From: an uncultured beta proteobacterium
GTDB taxonomy: Bacteria; Pseudomonadota; Gammaproteobacteria; Burkholderiales; Burkholderiaceae_C
Length of the DNA stretch: 59,630 nt
Direction: 5' to 3'
Assembly (NCBI GenBank): GCA_903894475.1
Contig: CAITQH010000228.1
Coordinates: forward strand, 1-59,630
Shown: piece by piece, positions 3,682-26,700 of the stretch
How positions within the stretch are numbered: position 1 is the first letter of the stretch
Layout: each line of letters begins with the position of its first letter
Translations under genes and position numbers: made by a program
Notes under the pieces: model-generated
Seen by the model: the letters and a program-made list of their open reading frames with translations, nothing else
What the model was told of the DNA's origin: nothing
Database searches by the model: none

Positions 3682-3750
3682 GTCGTCACTGCGAGCGAAG
3701 CGCGGCAGTCCATGCATGGATCGCCACAGGCCTTCGGCCTTCGCGATGAC
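3682..3750. repeat. REP-like intergenic repeat (cactgcgagcgaagcg family)
   Basis: Palindromic intergenic element beginning gtcgtcactgcgagcg and ending ccttcgcgatgac. It contains the inner palindrome aggccttcggcct. It belongs to the same family as the copies at 15651 and 18928 and lies between the HAD phosphatase gene and pcnB. It is non-coding and could act as an mRNA 3' end stabiliser or terminator-like hairpin for the upstream operon. Confidence 0.65.
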
Positions 3751-10178: not shown

Positions 10179-10279
10179 GTATGCCAGCGCTTCGCAGACC
10201 CTGGCCGTCCACGGTAAGATGCGCGCCCTGAGCCCGCTAAATTGTCAGCCTCCCATCACCGCACTCAAAGAGGTAGCCC

Positions 10280-11613: not shown

Positions 11614-11968
11614 CGGCCATGCCGACGATATGAATACGGCGGAAATCAATGATGGCGCTTGAGTCTGCGCCTTCGATGCGACGCCGCAATTCGTCCATGT
11701 GCCGGAGAAGTGTTTTCCGCAGGAAGAGCGCCAGTGCAGCTATTGCAGCCATGCACACCGAGAATGCAAGTTGACCGAACAGGGCGAAACTGATCGTCGG
11801 AATGGAGGCCGTGCAGAGCACCGCAACATAGTAGGTATTGAAGAACCCGCGAATGAAGCGCGAATCCATGGGTGTGTCGTGTTTTAGAACCAGCAAGGGC
11901 AGCGAGCCCATGAAGAAATAGCCCATGCACATAAGCAATGGAATGGTGGAAAACAGCGCAGCGTTCAT
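11558..11968 (-). CDS. Small four-helix membrane protein of unknown function
   Basis: The predicted 136-residue protein has hydrophobic helices at about residues 4-26, 44-62, 64-82 and 112-134, separated by basic loops (KTLLRHMDELRRRIEG). The arrangement, with FFNTYYVAVL in the second helix and a conserved-looking RRIHIVGMAVNFVQL in the last, recalls small DUF4149/DUF1772-type membrane proteins, but I cannot assign the family firmly. The start at 11968 puts the methionine directly before the first helix; an upstream ATG at 12040 would add 24 less plausible residues. Neither start has a clear Shine-Dalgarno. The 3' end overlaps proQ on the opposite strand by 56 bases. Confidence 0.6.
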   Translation of the reverse strand: MNAALFSTIPLLMCMGYFFMGSLPLLVLKHDTPMDSRFIRGFFNTYYVAVLCTASIPTISFALFGQLAFSVCMAAIAALALFLRKTLLRHMDELRRRIEGADSSAIIDFRRIHIVGMAVNFVQLAVLVWGLFHFFR

Positions 11969-12104
11969 CGGAAGTGGGCTTGAGCCATAGTACGAATAGC
12001 GAGATATTACGCTCGACGCGAACAGACACGCGGGCGCCATCCCAAGGAGAAGAGTTGCAAGGACGGTTTATCGGCATGCAAGAATTAGACTTTGCACAGA
12101 TCTC

Positions 12105-12395
12105 ATGTTGAATCGCTACATTTACTATCGTGTGCAAGTGGAACTGACTCCATTGTTGCTGCAGCAGGTACGGCTCATGTTCAGGCAAATTCAGGATCAG
12201 ACGTCGGTCCGCTGCGAGCTTGCGCGCCGGGCGCACGCCGATCCGGGATTTCATACCTGGATGGAGATTTACCATGACATACCCGACGGCTTTGACGAAA
12301 TTCTGAGCACTATTGAAAAACAGGCCGGCTTGGCGTCCCTGATCGAGGGAACGCGCCATGTGGACGACTTCCTGTCGGGCAGCGAACTCAGTTGA
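12105..12395 (+). CDS. DUF4936 family protein
   Basis: A 96-residue soluble protein starting MLNRYIYYRVQV, with central QVRLMFRQIQDQTSVRCELARR and WMEIYHDIPDGFDEIL. This matches the small DUF4936 family of Burkholderiales, whose fold looks like a ferredoxin-type alpha/beta dimer of the stress-responsive or antibiotic-monooxygenase kind. No catalytic residues are evident and the function is unknown. It is the last ordinary gene before the phenol cluster, and its stop codon lies inside the first TTGATCAA box of the cluster's putative upstream activating region. Confidence 0.75.
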   Translation: MLNRYIYYRVQVELTPLLLQQVRLMFRQIQDQTSVRCELARRAHADPGFHTWMEIYHDIPDGFDEILSTIEKQAGLASLIEGTRHVDDFLSGSELS

Positions 12396-12525
12396 TCAAG
12401 CATCAAGTTTCCTGATCAGCGCCATTGGCGCGGGTTTTCCCTATTACTGAAATGATCAAAGAGCGCCAATTCCCGCTCTGGTTTTTCACGAATTAATCAA
12501 GCTTCCTGCTGCAATCGATTGAGCG
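12392..12525 (+). promoter_or_regulatory. Putative upstream activating region with repeated TGATCAA boxes
   Basis: Within 130 bases lie ttgatcaagcatcaag (12392-12407), ctgatcag (12412-12419), atgatcaaa (12452-12460), ttaatcaag (12493-12501) and aatcgattgag (12513-12523). Two segments resemble each other as degenerate tandem units of about 45 bases, each running from a TGATCA box through gcgcca and ggtttt to the next atcaa. XylR/DmpR-class activators bind palindromes built on TTGATCAA at roughly -130 to -240 from sigma-54 promoters. These boxes fall at about -105 to -240 from the predicted start near 12630. Binding is inferred from sequence and spacing only. Confidence 0.5.
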
Positions 12526-12603
12526 CGTCGACACCCGACAACGCGCTCCATGCCTCTCGCGCAAAGCGTCAGCGCTCGCCCAAACCGACCGACCCGCAGC
12601 AAC

Positions 12604-12619
12604 TGGCACGCGCCATGCT
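12604..12619 (+). promoter_or_regulatory. Sigma-54 (-24/-12) promoter of the phenol cluster
   Basis: The sequence TGGCACGCGCCATGCT matches the RpoN consensus TGGCACG-N4-TTGCW at every position except the first T of the -12 box. The invariant GG (12605-12606) and GC (12617-12618) are separated by exactly 10 bases. Transcription would start near 12630, giving a 70-base leader before the first gene at 12700, which has a good ribosome site (aggag at 12689-12693). A sigma-54-dependent activator gene lies at the other end of the cluster, supporting the assignment. Confidence 0.8.
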
Positions 12620-12699
12620 AGGTCATGCCTTGACCGGTTGGCGCACGAGACGCAGCCGCGCTGAAGCATGACACTTAAATACAAGTACAGGAGACCTGA

Positions 12700-14535
12700 A
12701 TGAAATTTCCCGTTCCACACGACATCAAGGCCCAGACCCTGCCCGGCACCGAAGGCTGGGAACGTATGTATCCCTACCAGTACCAGTTCGTCACCGACGA
12801 CCCGGTGCGCAACCAGTACGAGAAAGAGACTTTCTGGTTTTACGACGGCCTGCATTACCCGGAGCCGCTGTACCCGTTTGACACCATCTGGGATGAGGCC
12901 TGGTATCTGGCGCTGTCGCAGTTCAACAACCGCATCTTCATGGTGCCGCCTGTGCGCGGCGTCGATCACCGCATCATCAATGGCTACGTCTACATCTCGC
13001 CGGTTCCGGTCAAGGATCCAGCGGAAATTGGCAGCCGTGTGCCGCACTTCATGGAGCGTGCCGGCCACTACTACAAGAACTGGGACGCGCTCGAAGCCAA
13101 GTGGAAAGTGAAGATGGAAGCCACCATCCGCGAACTCGAAGCGGTGCAAATCCCCAAACTCGCCGACATGGAAGACATCTCGGTCGTGATGGATGCGGTG
13201 GGCGAATCCAAGGGCTATCACCTGCTGAAGAATTACGATGACCTGATCAATTTGGGCATCAAGTGCTGGCAGTACCACTTCGAGTTTCTCAACCTGGGTT
13301 ATGCCGCCTACGTTTTCTTTCTTGACTTTGTCCAGAAGCAATTCCCCAGCATTCCGGCGCAGCGCGTTACGCAGATGATCTCGGGCATCGACGTCATCAT
13401 GTACCGCCCCGACGAGGAACTCAAGGGTCTGGCACGCAAGGCGATCGAGCTTGGGGTGGACGCCCTGGTAACTTCCAGCCCCGAGTGGACGGCGGTGGAA
13501 GCAGCGCTCAAGGCCAACCCCAAGGGCGTCGAATGGCTGACCTCGCTGAACCTGTCACGCGAGCCCTGGTTCAATGTCTCCACCGGCACCGGCTGGTTCC
13601 ACCACGATCGTTCCTGGAACGATCAGATGAATGTGCCACTCTCAGGCATCAACACCTATATTGGCAAGCTCAAGCAAGGCGTCAACATCGAGCGCCCGAC
13701 CGAAAAAGTGCGCGCCGAGCGCGACCGCATCACGGCCGAATACCGGGGCCTGATCGAGAGCGAGGCTGATCGCAAGCAGTTCGATGAACTGCTGGGTTGT
13801 GCCAAGACCGTCTTCCCCTACGTCGAGAACCATCTGTTCTACGTCGAACACTGGTTCCATTCGGTGTTCTGGAACAAGATGCGCGAGGTCGGCGCGGTAA
13901 TGCAGGAGCACGGCGTCATCAAGGAGGTGGAGGACGTGTGGCTGCTGCGCCGCGACGAGATCAAGTCCGCGCTGTGGGACATCGTGACCGCCTGGGCCAC
14001 CGGCGTGACGCCGCGCGGCACCACCACCTGGCCGCCGGAAATCGAGTGGCGTAAAGGCGTCATGCAGAAGTTCAAGGAATGGAGCGCCCCGCCAGCGATC
14101 GGCGTGGCGCCGGAGGTGATTCAAGAGCCCTTTACCATCGTCCTTTGGGGCGTCACCAACAAATCTTTGGCGGACTGGGCGAGCGTGCAGGAGGTCAAAG
14201 ATCCCGAGACCATCACCGAACTCAAAGGTTTCGCGGGCAGTCCGGGCATTGCGGAAGGAATCGCACGGGTCTGCAAGACCGTGAACGAGGTCGGGGAATT
14301 GCAGGAGGGCGAAATTCTGGTGGCGCCTACCACATCACCCTCCTGGGCGCCCGCCTTCGCCAAGATCGGCGCTTGCGTGACCGACGTCGGTGGCGTCATG
14401 AGCCACGCTGCCATCGTCTGTCGCGAATACGGCATGCCAGCCGTGGTCGGTACCGGAATGGCCACCAAGATCATCCGCAGCGGCATGCGGATCCGGGTTG
14501 ATGGGTCTACCGGCGTCATCACCATTTCGCGCTAA
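12700..14535 (+). CDS. ppsA: Phenylphosphate synthase subunit 1 (phosphohistidine swivelling-domain protein)
   Basis: This 611-residue (about 70 kDa) protein matches in size and layout subunit 1 of Thauera phenylphosphate synthase, which accepts a phosphoryl group on histidine and passes it to phenol. The C-terminal 110 residues are the PEP-synthase-type mobile domain, with catalytic H569 in GGVMSHAAIVCREYGMPAVVG. The N-terminal 500 residues form a PEP-synthase-related but specialised central region (FWFYDGLHYPEPLYPFD, WHDLE-like and WFHHDRSWNDQMNVP segments). No PEP/pyruvate-binding barrel is present, which separates it from true PEP synthase. Its stop overlaps the subunit 2 start by one base. 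The substrate assignment to phenol is inferred from the whole cluster. Confidence 0.85.
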   Translation: MKFPVPHDIKAQTLPGTEGWERMYPYQYQFVTDDPVRNQYEKETFWFYDGLHYPEPLYPFDTIWDEAWYLALSQFNNRIFMVPPVRGVDHRIINGYVYISPVPVKDPAEIGSRVPHFMERAGHYYKNWDALEAKWKVKMEATIRELEAVQIPKLADMEDISVVMDAVGESKGYHLLKNYDDLINLGIKCWQYHFEFLNLGYAAYVFFLDFVQKQFPSIPAQRVTQMISGIDVIMYRPDEELKGLARKAIELGVDALVTSSPEWTAVEAALKANPKGVEWLTSLNLSREPWFNVSTGTGWFHHDRSWNDQMNVPLSGINTYIGKLKQGVNIERPTEKVRAERDRITAEYRGLIESEADRKQFDELLGCAKTVFPYVENHLFYVEHWFHSVFWNKMREVGAVMQEHGVIKEVEDVWLLRRDEIKSALWDIVTAWATGVTPRGTTTWPPEIEWRKGVMQKFKEWSAPPAIGVAPEVIQEPFTIVLWGVTNKSLADWASVQEVKDPETITELKGFAGSPGIAEGIARVCKTVNEVGELQEGEILVAPTTSPSWAPAFAKIGACVTDVGGVMSHAAIVCREYGMPAVVGTGMATKIIRSGMRIRVDGSTGVITISR

Positions 14536-15644
14536 TGGAAAACTCAGCGCTCATGACGGCACCAGCGGCACTCGTGCCGCTGGTGTGCTGGCTGGAGGAC
14601 TGTCACAAGGACTCGGTGGCGCTGGTCGGAGGCAAGTGCTCGTCCCTGGGTGAACTGATTCACGCAGGGGTGCGCGTGCCGCCGGGCTTTGCCCTCACCA
14701 CCGAGGGCTTTCGCCACTTTATGGACCAGTCCGGCGTGAGCGCAGCGGTTCAGTCCCTTTTGAGCGGGATTGATTGTGAGAACCTTGACGCCCTGGAGGG
14801 CATCAGCGCCCAGATTCGGTCCTTGATTGAATCGCAGTCTTTTTCCATCGAGATCGAAGACCAGGTGGCGGAGCTTTACCGAAAACTTTCCTTGCGCTGC
14901 TGCATGCCGGCCGCGCCGGTGGCGGTGCGCTCCAGCGCCACCGCCGAAGACTTGCCCGGGGCAAGTTTTGCCGGTCAGCAGGACACCTACCTGTGGGTGC
15001 GTGGGGTCGATGAGGTCTTGCAGCACATGCGTCGCTGCATATCGAGTCTGTACACCGCGCGCGCCATCGCCTACCGCGCAAACAAGGGATTTTCCGACGA
15101 CCAACTGGCCATCAGCGTCGGCGTTCAAAAGATGGCCAACTCCTACACCGCCGGCGTCATGTTCACTTTGCATCCGGGCAATGGAGACCGTTCGGTGATC
15201 GTGATCGACTCGAACTTCGGTTTTGGCGAATCGGTGGTTTCTGGCGAAGTCACGCCCGACCATTTCGTCGTCAACAAGATCACTCTTGACATCATCGACC
15301 GCACCATTTCACAAAAGCTGATCTGCTATACGGTCGACACCAAGACCCAGACTTCGCGCCTGATGGACATCCCCTTCGAGCGCCAGAAAGTGCAGTCGCT
15401 GATCGACGACGAGATCACCGAACTGGCCTGGATGGGCAAGCAGATCGAAAAGCATTACGGCTGCCCGATGGACATTGAGTGGGCCATCGACAAGGACCTG
15501 CCGGCGGGCGGCAACATCTTTATCCTGCAGGCCCGACCCGAAACCGTGTGGAGCAAGAAGCCACAGGGTCAGGGCAGCACCGCAGTGGGCTCGGCCATGG
15601 AGTACATCCTGAGTGGCATGCTGGCTGGTCGCCGAGTGAGTTGA
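14535..15644 (+). CDS. ppsB: Phenylphosphate synthase subunit 2 (ATP-binding PEP-synthase-like)
   Basis: This 369-residue (about 40 kDa) protein corresponds to the N-terminal ATP-binding part of PEP synthase/pyruvate phosphate dikinase. Landmarks are LVGGKCSSLGEL with K34, AVRSSATAEDLPGASFAGQQ with R132, QKMANSYTAGVMFTLHP, and the closing DIEWAIDKD...FILQARPET block. It should phosphorylate the histidine of subunit 1 using ATP, as in the Thauera enzyme, where both subunits are separate proteins. It overlaps ppsA by one base. A 26-base repeat begins 6 bases after its stop, separating it from the UbiD-like gene. Confidence 0.86.
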   Translation: MENSALMTAPAALVPLVCWLEDCHKDSVALVGGKCSSLGELIHAGVRVPPGFALTTEGFRHFMDQSGVSAAVQSLLSGIDCENLDALEGISAQIRSLIESQSFSIEIEDQVAELYRKLSLRCCMPAAPVAVRSSATAEDLPGASFAGQQDTYLWVRGVDEVLQHMRRCISSLYTARAIAYRANKGFSDDQLAISVGVQKMANSYTAGVMFTLHPGNGDRSVIVIDSNFGFGESVVSGEVTPDHFVVNKITLDIIDRTISQKLICYTVDTKTQTSRLMDIPFERQKVQSLIDDEITELAWMGKQIEKHYGCPMDIEWAIDKDLPAGGNIFILQARPETVWSKKPQGQGSTAVGSAMEYILSGMLAGRRVS

Positions 15645-15650
15645 CCCCCG

Positions 15651-15676
15651 GATTGCCGCGCTGCGCTCGCAATGAC
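15651..15676 (-). repeat. 26-base repeat, inverted copy 1
   Basis: This stretch (gattgccgcgctgcgc...caatgac) is the exact reverse complement of 18928-18953. It belongs to the same repeat family as 3682-3750. It sits just after the ppsB stop, and together with the second copy it brackets the UbiD-like and CoA-ligase genes. Confidence 0.85.
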
Positions 15677-15737
15677 AGAACCGATTTCACTTCCCGATTA
15701 GTCACAAACCTCAACCTATCCATCTACAGGAGAAAAC

Positions 15738-17249
15738 ATGAATGCACGTACCAACGCAGGACAAATTGACGATCTGCGCAGTTTTATCGCCGCACTGGAG
15801 GCCAACGGGCAATTGCATCGCGTCAAGACTGAAGTCGACTGGAAATTCGAGCTCTGCCACGTCTCCAAAGTCAATGAAGAGCAAAAAGGCCCAGGCCTGC
15901 TGTACGAGAACGTCAAGGGTTACGATATTCCGGTCTTCACCAGTGCCTTCACCACATCGCAGCGCCTTGCCATTGCACTGGAGCAGGATCCCTCGCTGTC
16001 GATGAGCCAGTTGTCCAAGAAGTGGATGGAGCTGACTACCAAGCAGATGATCAAGCCCACCATCGTTGAGAACCCCCCAGTGCTGGAAAACATCATCGAA
16101 GGCGACGCAGTCGATATCGAGATGTTTCCATCGCCCTGGTTCTACCCGGACGATGGCGGGCGATTCTTCGTCACGTCGGGCTACCTCGTAACCCAGGATC
16201 CCGATACCGGCTGGACCAATCTGGGCACCTATCGCGCTCAGGTACTGGGCAAGAATATCCTGGGCTCGCAGATCATCAAGGGCAAGCACGGTGACATGCA
16301 CATGAAGAAGTACGCCGAGCGCGGCGAACTGATGCCCGCCGCCTACGTCGTCGGCTGCGACCCGGTGCTGTTCCTGGCGGCCTCGACTCTGGTCAGCGCG
16401 CAGGTTGACGAGTACGACATTGCCGGCTCGCTGCGTGGGCGCCCGGTGCCTGTGTTCAAGTCCGAGCTCACCGGCCTGACACTGCCGGCCAATGCCGAAA
16501 TCATTGCCGAGGGCTTCATTGACCCGAACGAGTTGATGGAGGAGGGGCCGTTTGGCGAGTACACCGGTTACTACTCCGGCAACAAGGGCAAGGACTACCC
16601 GAAGCCGGTGCTGCGTATCAAGCGCATTCTGCACCGCAACAAGCCCATCATGTGGGCCACCACGGTGGGCAAGCCGATCAATGACATTCACATGATTCAG
16701 TCGCTCAACCGCACTGCCACGCTCTGGCACGACCTGGAGACCATGAAAGTGCCTGGCATCCAGAGCGTCTACATCCCGCCCGAGGCCTGTGGCCGCTTCT
16801 GGGTCGTGGTGTCGCTCAAACAGATGTACCCCGGGCACTCCAATCACGTCGGCAACGCGGTGATCGCGAGCACCACCGGGCACTACGGAGTCAAGGGGGT
16901 CATCACGGTCGATCACGACATAGAAGCCGACGACTGGGACCGCATCTGGTGGGCGCTGGCAACGCGCTTCGACCCGAAGCGCTCGGCCCAGATCATCGAC
17001 CGCGGCCGCTCCACGCCACTGGATCCTGGCCTGCCGATCGACGCGCGCGACATCACCAGCCGCATCATCCTGGACGCCTGCACACCCTATGAATGGAAGG
17101 ACAAGCCCAACGAGATTTTCATGGATCGCACGGTGCTGCAAAAAGTATCGGACCGCTGGAGCGAATACGGTTTCGGCGGCCCAAGCCCGGTGGCCGGCAT
17201 GATCGGCCGCCTGACCCGCCCTGAGGTCAAGGGCAAGGGCGCCAAGTAA
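15738..17249 (+). CDS. UbiD family (de)carboxylase, phenylphosphate carboxylase-type
   Basis: A 503-residue prFMN-dependent UbiD enzyme. The cofactor and metal region reads NLGTYRAQVLGKN (N161, R166) followed by KHGDMH (H184). The catalytic glutamates lie in EEGPFGEYTGYYS (E269 and E274), with the same five-residue spacing as E277/E282 of Fdc1, and R166 completing the Glu-Arg-Glu network. In this setting it most likely carboxylates phenylphosphate to 4-hydroxybenzoate. Thauera uses two UbiD-like subunits plus small gamma and delta proteins, but only one UbiD-like gene is present here. It has a strong ribosome site (caggag). Decarboxylation of a phenolic acid is an alternative role. Confidence 0.85.
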   Translation: MNARTNAGQIDDLRSFIAALEANGQLHRVKTEVDWKFELCHVSKVNEEQKGPGLLYENVKGYDIPVFTSAFTTSQRLAIALEQDPSLSMSQLSKKWMELTTKQMIKPTIVENPPVLENIIEGDAVDIEMFPSPWFYPDDGGRFFVTSGYLVTQDPDTGWTNLGTYRAQVLGKNILGSQIIKGKHGDMHMKKYAERGELMPAAYVVGCDPVLFLAASTLVSAQVDEYDIAGSLRGRPVPVFKSELTGLTLPANAEIIAEGFIDPNELMEEGPFGEYTGYYSGNKGKDYPKPVLRIKRILHRNKPIMWATTVGKPINDIHMIQSLNRTATLWHDLETMKVPGIQSVYIPPEACGRFWVVVSLKQMYPGHSNHVGNAVIASTTGHYGVKGVITVDHDIEADDWDRIWWALATRFDPKRSAQIIDRGRSTPLDPGLPIDARDITSRIILDACTPYEWKDKPNEIFMDRTVLQKVSDRWSEYGFGGPSPVAGMIGRLTRPEVKGKGAK

Positions 17250-17263
17250 GGCGCGCCAGACCT

Positions 17264-18910
17264 ATGAAAGTGCTGCGCTACACCCAGGCCATGGTGGACG
17301 AATTTGTCCGCGATGGCTACTGGACCAACGAGACTTTTTACGACTACTACGATCGCAATGCGCGCACGATCGGCGAACGCGAGGCGCTGGTCGACTCGCA
17401 GCACCGGGTGACCTGGCGCCAGGCACGCGATCTGGTCGACGCCATTGCCAGCGGCTGGGTGCAAGCGGGCATTCCCAAGAGCGCGCGCATCATCATCCAG
17501 GCGCCCAACAGCGTCTATGGTTTTCTGGCACGGGCGGCGGCTGAGCGCGCCGGCCTGGTCTCGATGACGGCCTTTGCCACGCTGCGCCAAAACGAGCTGG
17601 AAGACATTCTGGAAAGAACGCAGGCCGAGGTGGCGGTGATTCCTGCCGTCTTCCGCGGCTTTGATTATCTGGCGATGTACCGCGAACTGATGTTGCGCTT
17701 TCCGTCGCTGCGCAAGATCTATCTGTTCGATGACGAAGTGCCAGCCGACGCCCCGGCCGGCACCCTGTCGCTGACTCGCACGGCACAGGCCTTTCTGAGC
17801 AGGATCGACAGGGCAGCGCTGGACGCGCGCCGCTTCGACCCCTTCTTCGATGTCGCCCTGCTCACCACCACCTCGGGCACCACCGGTCTGCCCAAGCTGG
17901 TCGAGTGGCCGCTGGCACCCCGTGTCTGCACCTCCAAGGGTCGCATTGACCTGTGGCAGCTCGGCGCAGATGACATCACCATGGCCATCGCACCGCATGC
18001 CGGCGGCGCTGCCGGCACGCTGACCTATTTTGCGGCGCCCCTGTGCGGCGCCAAAACCGTGATGCTGGAAGACTTTAGCCCTGAACTTGCGCTGCAAACC
18101 ATCGAACGCGAGAAGGTGACTGCGATTGGCGTTGTGCCCACGCACCTGGTGCGCATGCTGGAGAAAAACGTCGAGCAGTACGACCTGTCCTCACTGCGCT
18201 TCATCCGCTCGGCTGGGGGCTACCTCTCGCCGCAGCTGGCGCAGGAAGCCGAGGCCAGACTGGGCGCCGTCATCACCTCCGATCTGGGAACACAGGACAA
18301 GGGCTCGGTCAGTGGCTGCCGAGTGAGCGATCCGGGCGAACTGCGCCGTCTCACGGTAGGCCAGATGCTGCCGGGCAACAAGGTTCGCCTGCTCGGGCCC
18401 GACGGGAAGGAAGTGCCGCCCAACGAGCCTGGTGTGCTGTGGTTCAGAGGCCCGCATTCGCCAGCCGGCTATTACCGCGACCCGGTCATGAGTGCCGAGG
18501 TGTTCGATGACGAGGGTTGGTGCACCACCGAGGACGTGGTCAAGTTCGACCAGGGCTGCTTGTGGATACTGGGCCGGCAAAAGGACGTGATCATCCGCGG
18601 CGGCCAGAACATCTACCCGGCCGAGGTGGAAGGCCTGATGAACGAGCACCCGAGCGTGGCGGCGGTAGCGGTTGTCGCGATGACTGATACCGAATATGGC
18701 GAGCGTGCCTGTGCGTTTGTTGTGTTACGCCAGGGCAAGGCACTGACGCTGGACGAGATCAAGAACTTTCTGGCCGGCAAGAACGTTGCCAAATTCAAGT
18801 GGCCTGAACGACTTGAGTTCGCTGACCAGATGCCCACGGTGGGCGACACCGGCAAGGTCGACAAGAAGGCGCTGCGAGCGCGCCTTCTTGCTGCGCAGCA
18901 GGCGGCGTGA
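17264..18910 (+). CDS. AMP-forming aryl-CoA ligase (4-hydroxybenzoate-CoA ligase candidate)
   Basis: A 548-residue ANL-superfamily acyl-adenylate enzyme. The P-loop is TTTSGTTGLPK (residues 201-211). Later landmarks are GWCTTEDVVKFD, the hinge GRQKDVIIRGGQNIYPAEVE, and the adenylation lysine K531 in GDTGKVDKK. The overall layout resembles the DhbE/EntE aryl-adenylating branch, which suggests an aromatic acid substrate. The gene follows the UbiD-like gene by 14 bases, so 4-hydroxybenzoate is the obvious candidate, giving 4-hydroxybenzoyl-CoA for the benzoyl-CoA route. Protocatechuate or another hydroxybenzoate cannot be excluded. Its Shine-Dalgarno is weak, consistent with translation following the upstream gene. 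Confidence 0.85.
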   Translation: MKVLRYTQAMVDEFVRDGYWTNETFYDYYDRNARTIGEREALVDSQHRVTWRQARDLVDAIASGWVQAGIPKSARIIIQAPNSVYGFLARAAAERAGLVSMTAFATLRQNELEDILERTQAEVAVIPAVFRGFDYLAMYRELMLRFPSLRKIYLFDDEVPADAPAGTLSLTRTAQAFLSRIDRAALDARRFDPFFDVALLTTTSGTTGLPKLVEWPLAPRVCTSKGRIDLWQLGADDITMAIAPHAGGAAGTLTYFAAPLCGAKTVMLEDFSPELALQTIEREKVTAIGVVPTHLVRMLEKNVEQYDLSSLRFIRSAGGYLSPQLAQEAEARLGAVITSDLGTQDKGSVSGCRVSDPGELRRLTVGQMLPGNKVRLLGPDGKEVPPNEPGVLWFRGPHSPAGYYRDPVMSAEVFDDEGWCTTEDVVKFDQGCLWILGRQKDVIIRGGQNIYPAEVEGLMNEHPSVAAVAVVAMTDTEYGERACAFVVLRQGKALTLDEIKNFLAGKNVAKFKWPERLEFADQMPTVGDTGKVDKKALRARLLAAQQAA

Positions 18911-18927
18911 TGGCAGCGATTGGACTT

Positions 18928-19010
18928 GTCATTGCGAGCGCAGCGCGGCAATCTATGCCTGCGGCTCGCCACGGTGGCTTGCCGCGTCGCTACGCTCCTG
19001 GCAAAGACGA
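18928..19010. repeat. REP-like element including 26-base inverted copy 2
   Basis: The first 26 bases (18928-18953) are the perfect inverted partner of 15651-15676. The element continues through gcctgcggctcgccacggtggc to about 19010, resembling the copy at 3682-3750. It fills the gap between the ligase stop and the CBS-protein start. Reading it as coding sequence upstream of the CBS gene gives an implausible N terminus. Confidence 0.75.
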
Positions 19011-19033
19011 CTACCTCAAGAAGGAGTATGGCA

Positions 19034-19474
19034 ATGATGGTGCGTAACTGGATGCAGGCCAACCCCATCACGATTACCAGCGACACGCTGGCATCCGATG
19101 CCAAACGCCTGCTGAGCGAACATAACCTGCATGCCCTGCCGGTCGTCGATCAAGGCCAATTGCGCGGCCTGGTGACGCGCGCCAACATGCTGCGCATCGG
19201 TCACTTTGTGCTGCGCACCCAGGACCCCGACGAGTTCAACTTCTTCGTCAACCGCCTGCGCGTGCGCGACGTCATGGTGCGCAGCCCGGCGACCGTGTCG
19301 GACGAGGACACCATGGTCGAATGCCTGCGTCGTGGCCGCGAACTCAGGGTAGCGCAGTTCCCGGTGATGCATGGCCAGCAGGTGGTTGGTATTATTACGG
19401 CCAATGAGATCTTCCAGTTGGCTGCGCATTGCCTGAGCAAATGGCAGGACAACGCACTGACACCTTCAACATGA
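19034..19474 (+). CDS. ppsC: Phenylphosphate synthase subunit 3-like protein (two CBS domains)
   Basis: This 146-residue protein consists of two CBS domains (roughly residues 4-60 and 75-137), with NWMQANPITITSDTLASDAKRLL and RVRDVMVRSPATVSDEDTMVECL as the two domain starts. The Thauera subunit 3 is a CBS-domain protein of about 24 kDa that stimulates phenylphosphate synthase, so this one is notably shorter. CBS pairs usually bind adenine nucleotides, which would suit energy-dependent control of an ATP-consuming step. I chose the ATG at 19034 because aaggag (19021-19026) lies 7 bases upstream; the in-frame ATG at 19028 is too close. Its stop overlaps ubiX by four bases. Confidence 0.8.
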   Translation: MMVRNWMQANPITITSDTLASDAKRLLSEHNLHALPVVDQGQLRGLVTRANMLRIGHFVLRTQDPDEFNFFVNRLRVRDVMVRSPATVSDEDTMVECLRRGRELRVAQFPVMHGQQVVGIITANEIFQLAAHCLSKWQDNALTPST

Positions 19475-20070
19475 CAGACCCAAAAAACCTGCCCCTGGTG
19501 GTGGCCATCACCGGCGCCACCGGCGTCATCTACGGCGTGGAACTGCTGCGCATCCTGCGAGATCTGGGGCAGGAGACCCATCTGGTCCTGAGCGAGGCCG
19601 CCGGTATGAATCTTGGCCTGGAGACCGATTACTCGATTGAAGAGGTGAAGGCCCTGGCCAGTGTCGTCTACAGCAACAAGGACGTTGGGGCGGCGGTTGC
19701 CAGCGGCTCGTTTCGCACGCGCGGCATGATCGTGGCACCCTGCACCGTCAAGAGCCTGTCGGCGATTGCCAACAGTTTCACTTACAACCTGGTGATCCGG
19801 GCCGCTGACGTGACGCTCAAGGAGCGTCGGCCGCTGGTGTTGATGGTCAGGGAGACACCCTTGCACAAGGGACACCTTGAGTTGATGTCACGCGTCGCCG
19901 ACATTGGCGGAATCATTCTGCCGCCGATGCCAGCGTTCTATCACAAGCCCAAGAGCGTGATGGACATCGTGCACCAGAGCCTGGGCAAGGCGCTTGACCA
20001 GGTGGGAATCGAGCACACTTTGTTTGAACGCTGGAGCGGGCGCCCCGAGCGCAGCCAGACCGGCGGGTAA
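19471..20070 (+). CDS. ubiX: Flavin prenyltransferase UbiX
   Basis: Makes prenylated FMN, the cofactor that UbiD-type enzymes need, from FMN and dimethylallyl phosphate. The 199-residue protein has the Rossmann-like start VVAITGATGVIYGVELLRIL (residues 10-29), VAPCTVKSLSAIANSFTYNLVIRAADVTLKE broken around residues 88-118, and the conserved RRPLVLMVRETPLH and ILPPMPAFYHKP blocks. The ATG at 19471 overlaps the ppsC stop (ATGA); a TTG further upstream is less likely. Having its own ubiX inside the cluster supports the idea that the UbiD-like enzyme nearby is prFMN-dependent. A housekeeping copy for ubiquinone synthesis may exist elsewhere. Confidence 0.93.
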   Translation: MTDPKNLPLVVAITGATGVIYGVELLRILRDLGQETHLVLSEAAGMNLGLETDYSIEEVKALASVVYSNKDVGAAVASGSFRTRGMIVAPCTVKSLSAIANSFTYNLVIRAADVTLKERRPLVLMVRETPLHKGHLELMSRVADIGGIILPPMPAFYHKPKSVMDIVHQSLGKALDQVGIEHTLFERWSGRPERSQTGG

Positions 20071-20075
20071 TCCGC

Positions 20076-20894
20076 ATGAGCACACTGCGCTGGCTGGCGT
20101 GTGAAAGTGAAGCGAAAGGCTCGCACGCACCCAGCCGAACGCCTCCGGGCACGGTGGTCTATGCCATCGGCGATATTCATGGTCGCAGCGACCTGCTCGA
20201 AACCCTGCTGCAGGGAATCGAGCAGGACAGCCAGGGCCGACAGGCTGCCCGCTTTGTCGTCATTTTTCTGGGCGACTACCTGAGCCGCGGCGATGACTCG
20301 TACGCCGTCGTTGAGAAGGTCATGTCATGGCGAGCCGCAACGCCCGCCAGCACCGAAGTCGTGACGCTTCGAGGCAACCATGAAGACCTTGCCCTGCGCT
20401 ATCTGCTCGGTGAGATGGAGGCAGGGCGACATTGGTTTGACTACGATGGTCTGGACGCGCTGTCCGACTACGGCGTCGTCGCAGCCGATCCCGGTGCGCG
20501 CGATGACGGCTCACTGCAGTTCCTGCGCGAGCGCTTCGCCCAGGCCCTGCCGCAGCAGCATCTGGCCTTCTTCCAGGCGTTGGCCATCAACCACCGCGAG
20601 CAGGACTACCACTTCGTGCACGCCGGCGTGCGCCCGGGCGTGCCACTGGCAGAACAGAACGCGCACGATCAGATGTGGATTCGCAAGCGCTTTCTGGAGT
20701 CTGATCTGGACCATGGCGCCGTTGTCGTGCATGGTCACTCGATCGCGCCAACACCCCAGGTGCGCCACAACCGCATCGCCATCGATACCGGCGCCTACGC
20801 CAGCGGGGTGCTCACCTGTCTGATGCTCGACGGGACGAAGCGTGCTTTCTTGCAGTCGATCGGGTTGCCCGAAAAATTACCGGATGCAGCCTAA
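20076..20894 (+). CDS. PPP-type metallophosphoesterase
   Basis: A 272-residue phosphatase of the PP1/PP2A/lambda fold. Metal and catalytic motifs are AIGDIHGRSD (D33, H35), FLGDYLSRGDD (D67), LRGNHEDLA (N101, H102), HFVHAGVRPG and VVVHGHSIAP. The second motif normally reads GDxVDRG; here the aspartate before RG is serine, although the metal ligand D67 and the arginine are kept. The gene starts 5 bases after ubiX, so it probably belongs to the phenol operon. It could release phosphate from a phosphorylated intermediate or dephosphorylate a cluster protein. Its involvement is inferred from position alone, and the 3' end converges on the PNPOx-like gene. Confidence 0.85.
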   Translation: MSTLRWLACESEAKGSHAPSRTPPGTVVYAIGDIHGRSDLLETLLQGIEQDSQGRQAARFVVIFLGDYLSRGDDSYAVVEKVMSWRAATPASTEVVTLRGNHEDLALRYLLGEMEAGRHWFDYDGLDALSDYGVVAADPGARDDGSLQFLRERFAQALPQQHLAFFQALAINHREQDYHFVHAGVRPGVPLAEQNAHDQMWIRKRFLESDLDHGAVVVHGHSIAPTPQVRHNRIAIDTGAYASGVLTCLMLDGTKRAFLQSIGLPEKLPDAA

Positions 20895-21364
20895 AGGCTG
20901 GCAATCGGAGCGCTCAGATCAAGCTCGTCACGATGGCCAAACCCGAGTGAATTGTCGATAAAGAGCAAGCGCCGCGGCGCCACCCGATACCAGCACACTT
21001 TGGCCAGGGCCTCGACAATCACCGCCGGGGCTTGCGCAAGCTTCCCAATCAAGGGGAATTTCTGGCCGTACAAGAGTTGTGCCCTCGCTTCTGCGTCACC
21101 CGTCAGTTGGTCGACCACGCCCTCAAGTTGCACGCCCTGGATGCCTGGCCAGTCGGCATGGTCGCCCTGGATCGTCACTGCAACCTGGGCGCTGTGGGTC
21201 AGGTTGAGACAGTGCCTGCTGCCCGGGGCCGACAAAAAATACAGGTCCCAGCCATCGTGAACATAAAACACCGCTGCCGCCCAGACGCCCTGCGGACCGC
21301 TGGTGGCCAGCGTGGCGACATGGTGCGCTTGCAAATGACGCTGCACCCGAGCCTGCAATGTCAT
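20891..21364 (-). CDS. Pyridoxamine 5'-phosphate oxidase-like FMN-binding split-barrel protein
   Basis: A 157-residue protein with the split beta-barrel pattern of FMN-binding PNPOx relatives: HHVATLATSGPQGVWAAAVFYVHDGWDLYFLSAPGSRHCLNL, then VAVTIQGDHADWPGIQGVQLEGVVDQL. It is too short for a true pyridoxine oxidase. Such proteins bind FMN, F420, heme or act as small reductases. Its ATG overlaps the stop of the sigma-54 regulator gene by four bases (ATGA), so it is probably translated from the regulator's mRNA. A role in flavin handling beside UbiX and UbiD is tempting but unsupported by any motif. Confidence 0.83.
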   Translation of the reverse strand: MTLQARVQRHLQAHHVATLATSGPQGVWAAAVFYVHDGWDLYFLSAPGSRHCLNLTHSAQVAVTIQGDHADWPGIQGVQLEGVVDQLTGDAEARAQLLYGQKFPLIGKLAQAPAVIVEALAKVCWYRVAPRRLLFIDNSLGFGHRDELDLSAPIASL

Positions 21365-23118
21365 ACCTTGCCTGCCGGTGCCAGCGGTGGCGCGAACCCC
21401 ACCTCTTCATGGCCAGCGCTGTCTTCTTGCAAGCGGCGCAGGCGATAGGCCAGTTGGGGCCTGGTAACACCCAGCATGCGGGCGGCAGAGGACAGATTGC
21501 CACGCGCCTTGTCGACCGCACTTTCCAGCAGCATGGTCTCGACCTGCTCGAGCGTCATCTCGCCGCTGCAGACGGCTTCGCACAAAGCCTGGCCGGTCTG
21601 AACAGACCGCGCGTTGATGGCGCCATGAACATCAAGCCCGAACTCGTCGGCCTCGCGCTCTTCGCACGCCGAAAAAATATGGTGCACCTCGATCCGTGTG
21701 CCACTGGGGGCCAGAATGACGCCACGCTCTATCATGTTCTGCAACTCGCGGATGTTGCCCGGCCACGCATAGGTCAGCAGCGCACGCTTGGCTTTGTCGG
21801 TAAAACCTTTGAGCCGCTTGCCGTGGATAGCACTGTACTTTTCCAGGAATCGCTTGGCCAGCGGCGAGATATCCTCCTGGCGCTCGCGCAAAGGCGGGAT
21901 GACGATTTGGTAGGCATTTAAACGGTAGTAGAGGTCAGAGCGAAAGCGCCCCTCCTTCACCAGCACGCGCAGGTCGACGTTGGTGGCGACGATCAGGCGC
22001 ACATTGACCTTGCGCACAGTTTGCCCGCCCAGCCTTTCTATTTCTCCCTCCTGCAGCACCCTTAGCAGTTTGGCCTGCGCGGCCAGCGGCAAGTCCCCGA
22101 TCTCATCAAGAAACAGCGTGCCACCATCGGCTCGCTCAAATCGTCCGGCGCGCGCAACCTGTGCGCCGGTGTACGCGCCTTTTTCCACACCAAACAACTC
22201 GGATTCAACCAGATCGGGTGGAATGGCCGCGCAGTTGATCGCGACAAACATGGACTTGGCGCGCGCACCGCGCTCGTGCAGGGTGCGCGCAAAAACTTCC
22301 TTGCCAACGCCGGTCTCACCCAGCAGCAGCACGGTAATCTGGGTGTTGATGGCCTGTCGCAAGAGTTCGTAGGCGGCACGAAATGCCGGTGCGTCGCCCA
22401 CCATATTCGTCGGCAATCCCTCCTTGTCGCCGATGCTGGTTCTAAGCTCGACCACCTGCGTCTGCAGTTCGATCAGCTGCTCGGCAATCGACTCCCGGTT
22501 GAAGAAGTGCGCGTACTCGCTGGCATCCTGCCACTCTTGCATCGGCTTGCCGATGATCCGGCAATGGTCGGTCCCCATGCCGGCGCATTCCACCTCCTTA
22601 TACAGAATGGGGCGCCCCATAAAGGCCGAGGTGTAGCCGCAGGCATAGCCGATCTGGGTCCAGCACACCGGTTCGTGATGGGTGCCGAAGAAGTGCCGGT
22701 GCCACTGTCCCTCCCAGGAGTTTTCCCACAGAAATTCGCCATAGAAAGTGCCGGCAGCGCGATCCAACTCGAGGCGGATCTGTGTCACCTTGACAATGCC
22801 TTCGAGCGTATGGAGTTGCGGCCCGGTCATGAAGGCTTCCAGATCGCTGAGACACTGGGCACGCGTGCGCGCCAGTTCTGCATCCCGTACGCCCGACTCA
22901 TAGCCCATGCGTGTCAGCAAACCGCGCGCCCGGTCCATCCCCAGCGTGTCAATCAATTCCTTGCGCAGCAGTGCCTGCGCCTGCGCGTGGATGAGCAGCA
23001 TGCGGTGCTCGTGCAACCAGATCTGACCGGTTTGGGCACAAAAGTGCACCTGCGAGCGCAAGTCGCTGCTCGCTGACTCAGCGTGCTGCGCATGAGTTAC
23101 CACATGAAGCTTGGTCAT
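21361..23118 (-). CDS. Sigma-54-dependent activator of the XylR/DmpR/MopR class, predicted phenol sensor
   Basis: A 585-residue enhancer-binding protein with three parts. The N-terminal aromatic-sensing XylR_N/V4R domain covers about residues 20-210, the AAA+ domain about 235-475, and a Fis-type helix-turn-helix the C-terminal part (SSAARMLGVTRPQLAYRLRR). Walker A is GETGVGKE (267-274), the sigma-54 contact loop GAYTGA (314-319; the usual form is GAFTGA) and Walker B TLFLDEIGD. Against MopR, as I recall its structure, the phenol-binding H106 and W134 correspond to H103 and W131. The zinc ligands C155, E178, C181 and C189 correspond to C152, E175, C178 and C186, a constant offset of three. The ATG at 23118 has aagggg in front. 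It should drive the sigma-54 promoter at 12604. Confidence 0.93.
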   Translation of the reverse strand: MTKLHVVTHAQHAESASSDLRSQVHFCAQTGQIWLHEHRMLLIHAQAQALLRKELIDTLGMDRARGLLTRMGYESGVRDAELARTRAQCLSDLEAFMTGPQLHTLEGIVKVTQIRLELDRAAGTFYGEFLWENSWEGQWHRHFFGTHHEPVCWTQIGYACGYTSAFMGRPILYKEVECAGMGTDHCRIIGKPMQEWQDASEYAHFFNRESIAEQLIELQTQVVELRTSIGDKEGLPTNMVGDAPAFRAAYELLRQAINTQITVLLLGETGVGKEVFARTLHERGARAKSMFVAINCAAIPPDLVESELFGVEKGAYTGAQVARAGRFERADGGTLFLDEIGDLPLAAQAKLLRVLQEGEIERLGGQTVRKVNVRLIVATNVDLRVLVKEGRFRSDLYYRLNAYQIVIPPLRERQEDISPLAKRFLEKYSAIHGKRLKGFTDKAKRALLTYAWPGNIRELQNMIERGVILAPSGTRIEVHHIFSACEEREADEFGLDVHGAINARSVQTGQALCEAVCSGEMTLEQVETMLLESAVDKARGNLSSAARMLGVTRPQLAYRLRRLQEDSAGHEEVGFAPPLAPAGKV

Positions 23119-23152
23119 TGAACCCCTTCCAAATGAACTGCTGTGAATTCAA

Positions 23153-23170
23153 GCGCCGCACGCGCGGCGC
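23153..23170. promoter_or_regulatory. GC-rich hairpin in the regulator leader
   Basis: gcgccgcacgcgcggcgc forms a perfect 7-base-pair stem with a 4-base loop, 35 bases upstream of the regulator start. It may be an operator or a leader hairpin limiting regulator synthesis. It lacks a T-run on the minus strand, so it is not a classic terminator of the regulator message. Confidence 0.35.
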
Positions 23171-23422
23171 AAAACCCGGTGTCCAAATCAGCGGCCCATT
23201 CTGACCACTTTGCACGAACTTGACAAGGGGGGGCTAAGGAAGGCAAACGAATCTACACCCCGAGCGAGCGCTCACAGCCTGGTGGATAGAGGGCGCAAAG
23301 ACGCCCAGTTTGACCCGGACATTCTTCTTGCATTGAAGAGCATGCAAACAGGGTTTCGGAACGTCGCCGCCGAGTTCCGCGACACGCATGTTGCCGCTCA
23401 ATACATCCAGTGGTGCCGACCG

Positions 23423-23698
23423 ATGGACCATCCGACCGTCACTTCAGGCAACGCGGCACCGATTCCGAAGATCATGATCGTCGACGACAGCCCCTACATT
23501 CGTCGCCTGCTGGTTGCTCTGTTATCCAGGAAATATGCAATTATTGAAGCCGATAGCAGTGTGTCTGCACTGCAACTAGCCAAAGTGGAGGCGCGCAGGC
23601 GCGGTGCTGATAGCTACTTCCTCAAGCCCTTCAGCCCATGCGCTGTTGCCGCCTGGGTGGAGAGCCGTCTGAGCTCACCAGCGCCTCTGTTGCAGTAG
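23423..23698 (+). pseudogene. Response-regulator receiver remnant with internal deletion
   Basis: The readable core starts PKIMIVDDSPYIRRLLVALLSRKYAIIEADSSVSALQLAKVE, which is the first half of a CheY-like domain including the acidic pocket. It jumps straight to ARRRGADSYFLKPFSPCAVAAWVESRL, the end of the domain. The middle 40-45 residues, holding the phosphoacceptor aspartate and the following strand with its Thr/Ser, are missing without a frameshift. The reading frame is open further upstream (ATGs at 23342 and 23210), but that part resembles no domain. It could be a decayed gene or a short protein with a non-signalling fold. No histidine kinase is nearby. Confidence 0.6.
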
Positions 23699-23798
23699 TT
23701 TTGCGCTGGCATTTCGCCTATCAGTTTTGGTCAGCATTCGACCCTGGGCAGAAACGGTAGTTACGAGTTCGGCTTAAGCCTGAGCCTGAGCCTGGAAT

Positions 23799-26700
23799 CT
23801 AGGCGCGCCGTAAATCCAGTGTGAACGGAAACTCCCGGCTCGCCGCCACGTTGATGGTGGCCGGTGGCACGACCAACGCGCCGGGCGTGTGGCCCATGGC
23901 GGCAAAGCGCGACATACGCCGGCTCTCCGCCTCATAAGCGTTGACCGGAAAAGTATCGGGGTTCAGCCCCCCCGGATGGGCCACGTGGTACTGGCAGCCG
24001 CCGAGCGAGCGCTTCATCCAGGTATCGACAATGTCAAAGGTCAGCGGGGTGTCGATGCCGATGCTCGGGTGCAATGCCGAAGGCGGATTCCATGCCTTGT
24101 AGCGCACGCCGGCGGCGTACTCGCCGGTAGTGCCGGTGGATTGCAGGGGCAGGGCGCGACCGTTGCAGGTGACCACGTAGCGGCTCTGGTTCAGGCCCGT
24201 CACATGAACTTCCATGCGCTCCAGCGACGAGTCGACGTAGCGCGCGGTGCCGCCGGGCGCACCTTCCTCGCCCATCACGTGCCAGGGTTCCAGCGCATTG
24301 CGCAGTGTGAGCTCGATGCTGGCTGCATGGACCGTGCCGACGATCGGGAAGCGGAACTCGAAGTGCGGCGCAAACCAACTCGTATCGAAAGCGTAGCCGG
24401 CGCCACGCAGCTCGGCCATGACGTCGTCAAAGTCGAGCCGGATGAAGGTTGGTAACAGGAAGCGGTCATGCAACTCGGTACCCCAGCGCGTTGCCGGTGC
24501 CTTGTACGGCGTCTTCCAGAAACGTGCCACCAGCGAGCGCAGCAGGAGTTGCTGCACCACGCTCATGCGCGGGTGGGGTGGCATCTCGAAGGCACGAAGC
24601 TCCAGCAGGCCGAGGCGTCCGGTGGCGGAGTCGGGCGAGTACATCTTGTCGATGGAGAACTCGCTGCGGTGCGTGTTGCCGGTGGCATCGATCAGGATGT
24701 TGCGCAGCGTGCGGTCCACTAACCACGGTGGCATGGGATGGCCCCCACGCTCCCCCACTTGGTGTGGGTCGCTGCCCCCCGAGGAGGCCAATTTTCCTAG
24801 GGGCGGCCCTTCGGAAAATTTGCCGTGCAGTTCGCGGTTCTTGTAGATCTGCTCGATGGCGATTTCAAGCTCGTAGAGCTGGTCGTTGCGCGCTTCGTCA
24901 ACGCGCGGTGCCTGACTCGTGGGGCCAACGAACATGCCGCTGAACAGGTAGCTCAGGCTCGGGTGGTTATGCCAGAACAGCAGCAGGCTGGCCAGCAGCT
25001 CGGGCTTGCGCAGGAACGGGCTGTCGGCCGGTGTCGCTCCGCCCATCACAAAATGGTTGCCACCGCCGGTACCGGTATGGCGTCCATCTTTCATGAACTT
25101 CTCGGCAGACAGGCGCGACGCGAAAGCCACCTGGTACAGAAACTCGGTGTTTCGGACGAGTTCGCCCCAGTTCGTCACCGCGTGAATATTGACCTCGATG
25201 ACGCCCGGGTCGGGTGTGACCTGCAGAAGCTTCAAGCGCGGGTCGCGCGGCGGCGGGTAGCCTTCGAGCACGATCTGCACGCCCAAGCTCTGCGCAGTGG
25301 CTTCGATGGCCGTGAGCAGTTCCAGATAGTCTTCCAGCTTTTCCAGTGGCGGCATGAAGATGTAGAGCACGCCAGACTTCTCGCCCACCGCTTCGGCCTT
25401 GGGGCCGCTGGCGCGGCGCGGGTCACGCACTTCCACACACAGGGCGGTGCGGGTGATCCAGTGCGCTGATTCCTGGGGTTTGGGAATGCGAGCGAAGTTC
25501 TCCGGCTCAAACTGCGCAGCGCTCTGCGCGCTAGCGGCTAGCGTACCGGTGCCTGAAGCGGTGGTGCTCTGAAATTTTCGTTCTGCCTCGATGCCAGGTC
25601 CGGTGCCGGACAGGTAAGGTGAAGCACCGGCCGGGGCGATTGCCTGCACGCTGGGTGTGTAGCGCGCCGCCAAGGCGTCATGCGCGGGCAGTGCGTCACG
25701 CGCTGCGCTCGGGTCCTGCTCCACCAGGTACGGGTAGTCGCTCTCGCTGACCCAGGGCAGCGAGTCCAGCGGCAGTCGCAGGCCCATGGGCGAGTCGCCG
25801 GGCATCAGGTACATGCGCTCGTCGCGCAGGAACCATGATCCGGTGGTCCAACCGGTGCCAGCCGAGCCCGGCTTCTCCGCCACCTTGATTGGCAACACAT
25901 AGCCGACGACGGAGTCGAGCTTTTGCTCAAAGACCCGGCGCAGGCGCGCGCGTTCCATCTCGTCGTCGAGCTTCGAATTGAATGGGTCGACGTTGGTTGG
26001 CAGACGCCGCTCCCGCCACAGGTAATACCAGACGTCTTCGTAGGCGCTTTGCATGAACTTGTCGGTAACGCCGAGCTTGGCGGCCAACGTCTGCGTGAAT
26101 CGCTTCGCATCGTCGCTGGTGTAATGGGTCGGCGCGCGTTCATCGGTAAAGAGCGCCGGGTTGGCCCACACGGCCTCGTGGTCGGCACGCCAGTAAATGT
26201 TCAAGGCCCAACGTGGCAACTGCTCGCCCGGATACCACTTGCCCTGGCCGAAGTGCAGAAAGCCGCCGCTTCCATATTCGGTGCGCAGTTTCTGCACCAA
26301 TTCGGTGGCAAAACCGCGCTTGGTGGGGCCCAGCGCCTCGGTGTTCCATTCTGGTGCGTCACGGTCATCCACCGCCACAAAAGTGGGCTCGCCGCCCATC
26401 GTCAACCGCACATCGCCGCTCTTGAGCTCCTCATCTACCGCGCTGCCCAAGGCCATGACATCGGCCCATTGTTCTTCGCTATAGGGCTTCGTGACGCGGG
26501 GTGACTCGTAGATACGGGTCACGGCCATGTGGTGGGCAAAGGTGACCTCGCACTTGTCCATGCCGCCCTCAATCGGTGCCGCGCCGGAAGGCTGTGGCGT
26601 GCAGGCGAGCGGAATATGCCCTTCACCGGCCAGCAGGCCCGAGGTGGCATCCAGGCCGACCCAGCCGGCGCCGGGCAGGTAGACCTCGCACCAGGCGTGC

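Follow-up and report, generated by a model that had tools for sequence, protein, structure and literature searches.

Introduction

Phenol clusters of the Thauera, Aromatoleum and Azoarcus type (pps-ppc), called classical below, encode a phenylphosphate synthase, PpsABC, and a phenylphosphate carboxylase, PpcABCD, in which PpcA (alpha) and PpcB (beta) are UbiD-like and PpcC and PpcD are the gamma and delta subunits. For Geobacter metallireducens, a 2009 study by Schleinitz reportedly detected carboxylase activity by assay as well as a homologue of ppcD close by, and is said to have left open whether alpha, gamma and delta are dispensable. No gamma homologue is described for G. metallireducens, and the dispensability of alpha, gamma and delta is unsettled for Desulfatiglans (PMC6114531). 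Here we analyse a phenol-activation cluster with a single UbiD-type carboxylase gene on contig CAITQH010000228.1 of an uncultured betaproteobacterium. The window, that is, the whole stretch of DNA analysed, is this entire contig (C228, 59630 bases), which belongs to a 5.2 Mb metagenome-assembled genome (MAG) of 536 contigs with a completeness of 98.49% and a contamination of 7.08%. A sequence-only reading of the window had singled out the lack of the gamma and delta genes; lacking gamma is not new, since clusters of this kind from Desulfatiglans anilini and G. metallireducens are already in print (PMC6114531). From the comparisons reported below, it is likely that this cluster would convert phenol to 4-hydroxybenzoate through one UbiD protein, PpcB, without alpha, gamma or delta.

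Results

A phenol cluster with one UbiD-type carboxylase

The cluster is present as described, and it looks like a full gene set for the first steps of anaerobic phenol degradation, with a single carboxylase gene instead of the usual four. By open reading frames (ORFs) and Pfam and NCBIfam models, seven plus-strand genes lie between 12.6 and 20.9 kb, in the order PpsA, PpsB, PpcB, AMP-forming ligase, short CBS protein, UbiX and metallophosphatase, and are followed by two minus-strand genes for a PNPOx protein and a PheR-like regulator:

12603..12619, plus strand: sigma-54 type promoter site (CTGGCACGCGCCATGCT), 97 nucleotides 5' of ppsA
12700..14535, plus strand: ppsA-like, phospho-histidine subunit of phenylphosphate synthase, His569 (PEP-utilizers Pfam domain)
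14535..15644, plus strand: ppsB-like, ATP-binding subunit of phenylphosphate synthase (PPDK_N Pfam, 384 bits)
15738..17249, plus strand: ppcB, single UbiD-type phenylphosphate carboxylase by model (TIGR02724, 580 bits)
17264..18910, plus strand: EntE/DhbE-like AMP-forming aryl-acid ligase (AMP-binding Pfam)
19028..19474, plus strand: ppsC-like two-CBS-domain protein, short, 148 amino acids (CBS Pfam, two stretches)
19471..20070, plus strand: ubiX, flavin prenyltransferase for the prenylated FMN (prFMN) cofactor (TIGR00421, 245 bits, cut-off 109)
20076..20894, plus strand: PPP-type metallophosphatase (ApaH-like), accessory gene (Metallophos Pfam)
20891..21364, minus strand: PNPOx-family protein, paired with the regulator (PNPOx_N Pfam)
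21361..23118, minus strand: PheR/PoxR-like sigma-54 activator (XylR_N, V4R, AAA and HTH_8 Pfam)

The sequence-only reading had put a gene set with ubiX, ligase and phosphatase on one strand from 12396 onwards. This is correct for the seven genes, but its span also takes in the two minus-strand genes, and the operon begins near the site at 12603 rather than at 12396.

On the NCBI beta model TIGR02724 (cut-off 469), whose name is an annotation and no proof of function, the UbiD protein reaches 580 bits; on the alpha model TIGR02723 (cut-off 565) it reaches only 199 bits. Its R166, E269 and E274, previously claimed to be intact, are indeed invariant in a six-row alignment (A2) and kept in 73/73 one-UbiD rows, the window's included, and in 5/5 classical PpcB rows; with this R-E-E triad and a UbiX of its own, the protein has the hallmarks of the prFMN-dependent UbiD family. 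It is 54% identical to PpcB of Azoarcus KH32C and 78-99% identical to the relatives in its own group of 61, starred in the tree.

Genes for alpha, gamma and delta are all absent from within the cluster. Searching the MAG with the UbiD Pfam family (E <= 0.001) returned a single match, the window's PpcB, and hence no second UbiD or alpha; the gamma model TIGR02725, with a cut-off of 136 bits, gave 13 bits at best. The earlier statement that there is only one UbiD and no gamma thus extends to the whole MAG. The genome search that had been proposed for ppcC and ppcD gave a clear answer for ppcC alone. For delta (TIGR02726) the best match had 108 bits against a cut-off of 282, which is the level of KdsC, while a classical ppcD control itself reached only 168 bits and 11/14 control genomes also gave matches below the cut-off; since KdsC-like proteins also score on this model, we do not take the absence of delta as proof. 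The same UbiD search shows that the usual UbiD of the ubiquinone pathway is missing from the MAG, which may reflect a gap in the assembly, the use of a different decarboxylase, or PpcB serving in both pathways.

The one-UbiD type is widespread

Among 399 genomes of the order, five were positive with the beta model, including that of the window; four of their neighbourhoods are one-UbiD and one is classical (G083, with PpcA, PpcC and PpcD). A contig scan with PpcB gave at least 508 confirmed relatives from at least 592 stretches, of which the best 80 were studied, a sample biased towards the one-UbiD type because the best matches to the window protein were kept. The term one-UbiD describes the cluster, not the genome. 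At 77 of these 80 loci PpcB is nearer to the window's and the locus is one-UbiD, and at three it is classical; a local alpha, gamma or delta gene was seen at 0/77 of the former, whereas 3/3 of the latter have such genes. PpsA lies nearby in 68 of the 77, with weak or no matches in some distant members and many loci cut by contig ends. The one-UbiD loci include those of Ramlibacter lithotrophicus, Geobacter argillaceus, Geotalea toluenoxydans and Polaromonas, and others in MAGs labelled Spirochaetota, Myxococcota, Bacillota and Archaeoglobi. G. metallireducens falls outside the best 80, which do hold other Geobacteraceae (L063, L067, L068 and L097). A plasmid search with PpcB (22 records) had among the matches listed one classical cluster, that of Azoarcus KH32C (54%), the others being 31-36% identical.

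For 47 of the 77 one-UbiD loci, chosen by us, and for the three classical controls, the whole genomes were searched. Alpha (E <= 1e-100) was found in 0/47 against 3/3 controls, gamma (E <= 0.001) in 0/47 against 3/3, one of the three being above the curated cut-off, and delta above its cut-off in 0/47 against 2/3.

Because 77 of the 80 best-matching loci share the one-UbiD type, the cluster cannot be a reduction peculiar to this organism. The PpcB tree and approximately unbiased (AU) tests speak against a classical cluster of the Comamonadaceae that recently lost genes, a reading that we rejected, and the earlier picture of a system reduced in a Comamonadaceae background gives way to a wide one-UbiD lineage that stands apart from classical PpcB.

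Carboxylase type and synthase lineage do not coincide

The PpcB tree places the window's protein in the one-UbiD lineage. Classical and one-UbiD proteins are separate in it, although the classical group as a whole is weakly supported because of L102. PpsA gives a different picture, with the five classical loci scattered over five places among one-UbiD loci: L103 joins L032, L037 and L038 with a Shimodaira-Hasegawa-like approximate likelihood ratio test (SH-aLRT) support of 97, and L019 joins L059 with 98. A single clade of all five classical PpsA sequences was rejected (p-AU 7e-45), as was one forcing together the three betaproteobacterial classical sequences (p-AU 8e-6). Forcing PpcB of L103 or L019 together with their one-UbiD PpsA partners was likewise rejected (p-AU 1e-43 and 1e-39, respectively).

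Because the PpsA and PpcB trees conflict so strongly, one type of carboxylase seems to have been swapped for the other on a common phenylphosphate-synthase backbone, and the simplest reading of the two trees is that carboxylase module and synthase have reassorted more than once. Reassortment would imply that both carboxylase modules accept phenylphosphate; finding either type on the same synthase lineages is what would be expected if both catalyse the same reaction. Taken together, the related clusters and the swapped carboxylase types suggest that the other three subunits may be dispensable.

The position after PpcB holds a ligase or a UPF0261 protein

Most one-UbiD loci have a gene for a UPF0261 (Tm-1-like) protein between those for PpcB and the CBS protein. 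In two such proteins that we examined, both Pfam domains score far above their cut-offs; among solved structures, Tm-1 and a UPF0261 protein are related to them. By tblastn, 60 of the 77 one-UbiD loci have UPF0261 only, seven the ligase only, seven both and three neither, the last being two contig ends (L061 and L079) and an archaeon. UPF0261 lies within 4.5 kb downstream of PpcB in 57 of the 60, and elsewhere in the locus in L073, L080 and L081; the four Geobacteraceae loci named above hold it in the ligase slot. L091, counted among the loci with both, is a weak and upstream case, L092 is ligase-only, and the contig of L094 terminates inside the ligase, with a UPF0261 gene possible beyond its end. 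Ligase orthologues directly follow PpcB at 13/77 loci. The window, unlike most of its one-UbiD relatives, has the ligase in this slot, and UPF0261 gave no match in its genome at E <= 0.001. The betaproteobacterial ligase-only loci are nested inside the UPF0261-only group, and a single origin of the six is borderline rejected (p-AU 0.026).

The nearest solved relatives of the slot ligase are salicylate- and 2,3-dihydroxybenzoate-AMP ligases. As its nucleotide-binding and C-terminal lysine motifs (TTSGTTGLPK and GKVDK) are kept, also in its orthologues, it looks like an enzyme. It probably traps 4-hydroxybenzoate as the CoA ester. Most such AMP ligases carry a glutamate in the A5 region; the slot ligases read DLGTQD there in 11/11 aligned sequences.

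It is possible that UPF0261 and the ligase substitute for each other, but simple equivalence is disfavoured because both co-occur in several lineages. A more specific proposal, which we regard as doubtful, is that the one-UbiD carboxylase needs the slot gene to provide an ATP-binding partner, a part that two unrelated families could play, UPF0261 in most lineages and the EntE-like ligase in that of the window. If this were so, UPF0261 would be an ATP-dependent factor for aryl-acid trapping, maturation or phosphate handling, giving a function to an uncharacterised family. The openly licensed papers searched held nothing relevant on UPF0261 with phenol or on Tm-1-like ATP binding with an aromatic compound.

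Regulation

The sigma-54 activator is 72% identical to the regulator adjoining the KH32C pps-ppc cluster and has the XylR_N, V4R, sigma-54 AAA and helix-turn-helix (HTH) domains of the PheR/DmpR type; its best NCBIfam model is MobR, with 600 bits, below the cut-off of 999. GAFTGA is the consensus motif of sigma-54 activators; an exact copy was not found in the regulator, which reads GAYTGA. Judged by motifs of MopR, H103 and W131 of the sensor domain would be the likely phenol-anchoring residues. The pair of PNPOx gene and regulator is also found beside the classical KH32C cluster, and the PNPOx gene occurs in 38/77 one-UbiD loci, many of which are cut by contig ends.

No exact match to YTGGCACNNNNNNTGCW other than the site at 12603 occurs in the window. 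With 0.43 matches expected by chance and one present in 38 of 100 shuffled windows, this match is weak taken alone, and its weight rests on conservation: the best site 5' of ppsA reaches at least 12/14 in 41/69 loci (38/66 without three duplicate genomes), compared with 0.14% of letter-shuffled upstream stretches.

Synthase, UbiX and phosphatase

PpsA is 79% identical to that of Azoarcus KH32C and 87% identical to that of the classical cluster in G083, and its His569 has the same number as the phospho-histidine of Thauera PpsA (PMC7500099). PpsB is 72% identical to its KH32C counterpart. The CBS protein, of 148 amino acids as against 222 in KH32C PpsC, is 61% identical to the first 138 residues of the latter. 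Phospho-histidine, ATP-binding and CBS subunits are thus all found, the split phosphoenolpyruvate (PEP) synthase arrangement of a phenylphosphate synthase. UbiX is 55% identical to that of KH32C.

The PPP-type phosphatase had been put forward as a functional stand-in for delta. We rule this out: its homologues also adjoin classical clusters that have ppcD (L019 and L103), and they were seen in 19/77 one-UbiD loci, a set in which contig ends truncate many loci.

The pathway downstream

The proposed feed into 4-hydroxybenzoyl-CoA is matched by genes elsewhere in the same MAG. In a model search, the alpha subunit of 4-hydroxybenzoyl-CoA reductase (Hcr) scored above its cut-off on contig C198, as did 6-oxocyclohex-1-ene-1-carbonyl-CoA hydrolase (Oah), the matching dehydrogenase (Had) and a dienoyl-CoA hydratase, which form a benzoyl-CoA ring-opening region on contig C201. 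This second contig (L120:2-13384) also encodes AFOR-type, FlpD-type, large FAD/4Fe-4S (read as HdrA-like) and NuoF-like proteins, and by gene content it looks like a class II (tungsten, Bam) benzoyl-CoA reductase cluster. Class II enzymes are typical of strict anaerobes, and one would be unusual in a betaproteobacterium.

Genomic setting and repeats

The phenol region lies between an ATP-grasp/alpha-E gene (7572-10178) and a DUF2126/transglutaminase gene (23799-27383), which in Caballeronia sp. Sq4a (L121; one annotated record) are neighbours 37 bp apart. It thus splits a run of DUF2126, circularly permuted ATP-grasp and transglutaminase genes that is contiguous in that strain. In another MAG (L077), the cluster has 92% DNA identity from 12077 to near the contig end, with other ORFs on the left. 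The contiguous flanks in Caballeronia and the different left side in L077 suggest that the cluster moved into its present place. No insertion mechanism was found, since there is no tRNA in the window and no 13-mer shared between 10100-12700 and 22900-24000.

A repeat (TTGCGAGCGCAGCGCGGCAATC) is present exactly at 15651-15672 (minus strand) and 18932-18953 (plus strand), both in intergenic gaps of the operon, and with three mismatches at 3689-3710 (plus strand); three copies compare with 0.01 expected. L077 has a related stretch, but between other genes of this operon, which would fit the movement of a small element.

Discussion

The likely conversion of phenol to 4-hydroxybenzoate by a carboxylase with one UbiD protein would run as follows. 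A PheR-like activator would sense phenol and switch on the sigma-54 promoter. PpsA and PpsB, aided by the CBS protein, would use ATP to turn phenol into phenylphosphate via His569. UbiX would supply prenylated FMN, with which PpcB would exchange the phosphate for CO2 at the para position to give 4-hydroxybenzoate, and the AMP-forming ligase would convert this to a CoA ester, to be consumed by 4-hydroxybenzoyl-CoA reductase and a benzoyl-CoA pathway encoded elsewhere in the genome. Within this scheme we infer the reaction itself, that PpcB suffices, be it alone or as a homo-oligomer, what the ligase acts on, and that phenol is the inducer.

Several points weigh against this scheme. The most important is that in D. 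anilini the conversion of phenylphosphoamidate to 4-aminobenzoate in vitro needs two UbiD-like subunits together, a pair that did not convert phenylphosphate (PMC7500099). Furthermore, phenylphosphate carboxylase activity could not be demonstrated in D. anilini extracts, and the Thauera delta subunit is required for phenylphosphate carboxylation (PMC6114531). The delta model separates poorly, the classical L102 reaching 168 bits, similar to several one-UbiD genomes, and the L040 genome encodes a delta-like HAD protein (G415:C63:1149-1646, L112) that, with 222 bits, lies between the KdsC-like level and the cut-off of 282. Two one-UbiD loci, L052 and L062, hold a further UbiD-like gene (34-36%). 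In the 47 related genomes the search for a second UbiD used only the alpha model, so they may encode one of another kind; the full UbiD count covers the window's genome. That genome may itself miss genes, as even the ordinary ubiquinone UbiD was not found, and both C198 and C201 may fall in its 7% contamination. Finally, the trees are quick ones whose support values are all SH-aLRT, and the groupings of L103 and L019 with one-UbiD partners were picked after the PpsA tree had been seen.

The strongest alternative is a carboxylase of which PpcB forms only a part, with an unrelated second protein (the ligase here, in most relatives UPF0261, or else the CBS protein) as a partner that takes the place of alpha, gamma or delta in structure or maturation. 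We consider this rather unlikely, but VdcC needs VdcD, LpdD acts as a prFMN chaperone for UbiD (PMC10865409), and the slot is filled by UPF0261 and/or the ligase in 74/77 loci. However, the motifs of the ligase are intact, and the slot genes belong to unrelated Pfam families, which would be odd for a shared structural role; both also occur together in several lineages. Action of the cluster on another phenolic compound (catechol, cresol, aniline or a lignin phenol) seems still less probable. A PpsA-like enzyme does act on aniline in D. anilini (PMC7500099), and the slot ligase resembles salicylate and dihydroxybenzoate ligases, but the high identity of PpsA to those of two classical clusters, the presence of classical PpsA sequences among its tree relatives, the 72% identity of the regulator to that of KH32C and the passed beta model make phenol the more probable substrate.

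Scarcely credible, by comparison, is an ordinary phenol degrader of the Thauera type whose ppcA, ppcC and ppcD fell into gaps of the assembly. The MAG is in 536 pieces and lacks a ubiquinone-type UbiD, yet alpha and gamma are absent from all 47 related genomes and present in all three controls, the window's PpcB belongs to the one-UbiD lineage and is 54% identical to classical PpcB, and the 92%-identical cluster of L077 has the same genes up to the end of its contig.

The conversion by a single UbiD protein, if true, would make this one-gene aromatic carboxylase with its own UbiX the simplest system for phosphate-driven para-carboxylation of phenol with CO2. That either carboxylase type is found with the same synthase lineages amounts to a natural exchange experiment, and the UPF0261/ligase slot points to a candidate partner of the carboxylase. 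In the openly licensed literature searched, we found no description of a genome-wide absence in many genomes, of modules being exchanged, of a slot for UPF0261 or ligase, or of this variant of the ligase.

Compared with the Thauera, Aromatoleum and Azoarcus systems, the window is alike in its synthase genes (72-79% to KH32C), in UbiX, in the PheR-like regulator with its PNPOx neighbour and, at 54%, in PpcB. It differs in having no PpcA, PpcC, PpcD or second UbiD, in the place of PpcB between PpsB and PpsC, and in the AMP ligase right after PpcB, which comes from another family. In G. metallireducens, homologues of phenylphosphate synthase and carboxylase form a putative three-gene operon, Gmet_2100-2102 (PMC1924859). 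The phe cluster of D. anilini is described as having PpsA, PpsB, PpcB and UbiX-like proteins and a 2,3-dihydroxybenzoate-AMP ligase, phenol-induced and of unassigned function, that is numbered next to ppcB; D. anilini has a further PpcB-like gene elsewhere in its genome, and PpsC-like and delta-like genes outside the cluster (PMC6114531). With ppsA, ppsB and a single ppcB and without alpha or gamma, the window corresponds to this Geobacter/Desulfatiglans type, except that no UPF0261 gene follows ppcB. One-UbiD phenol clusters were thus known earlier from Geobacter and Desulfatiglans; new here are the UPF0261 gene that usually fills the slot and the window's form, in which the ligase occupies it and the genome gives no UPF0261 match.

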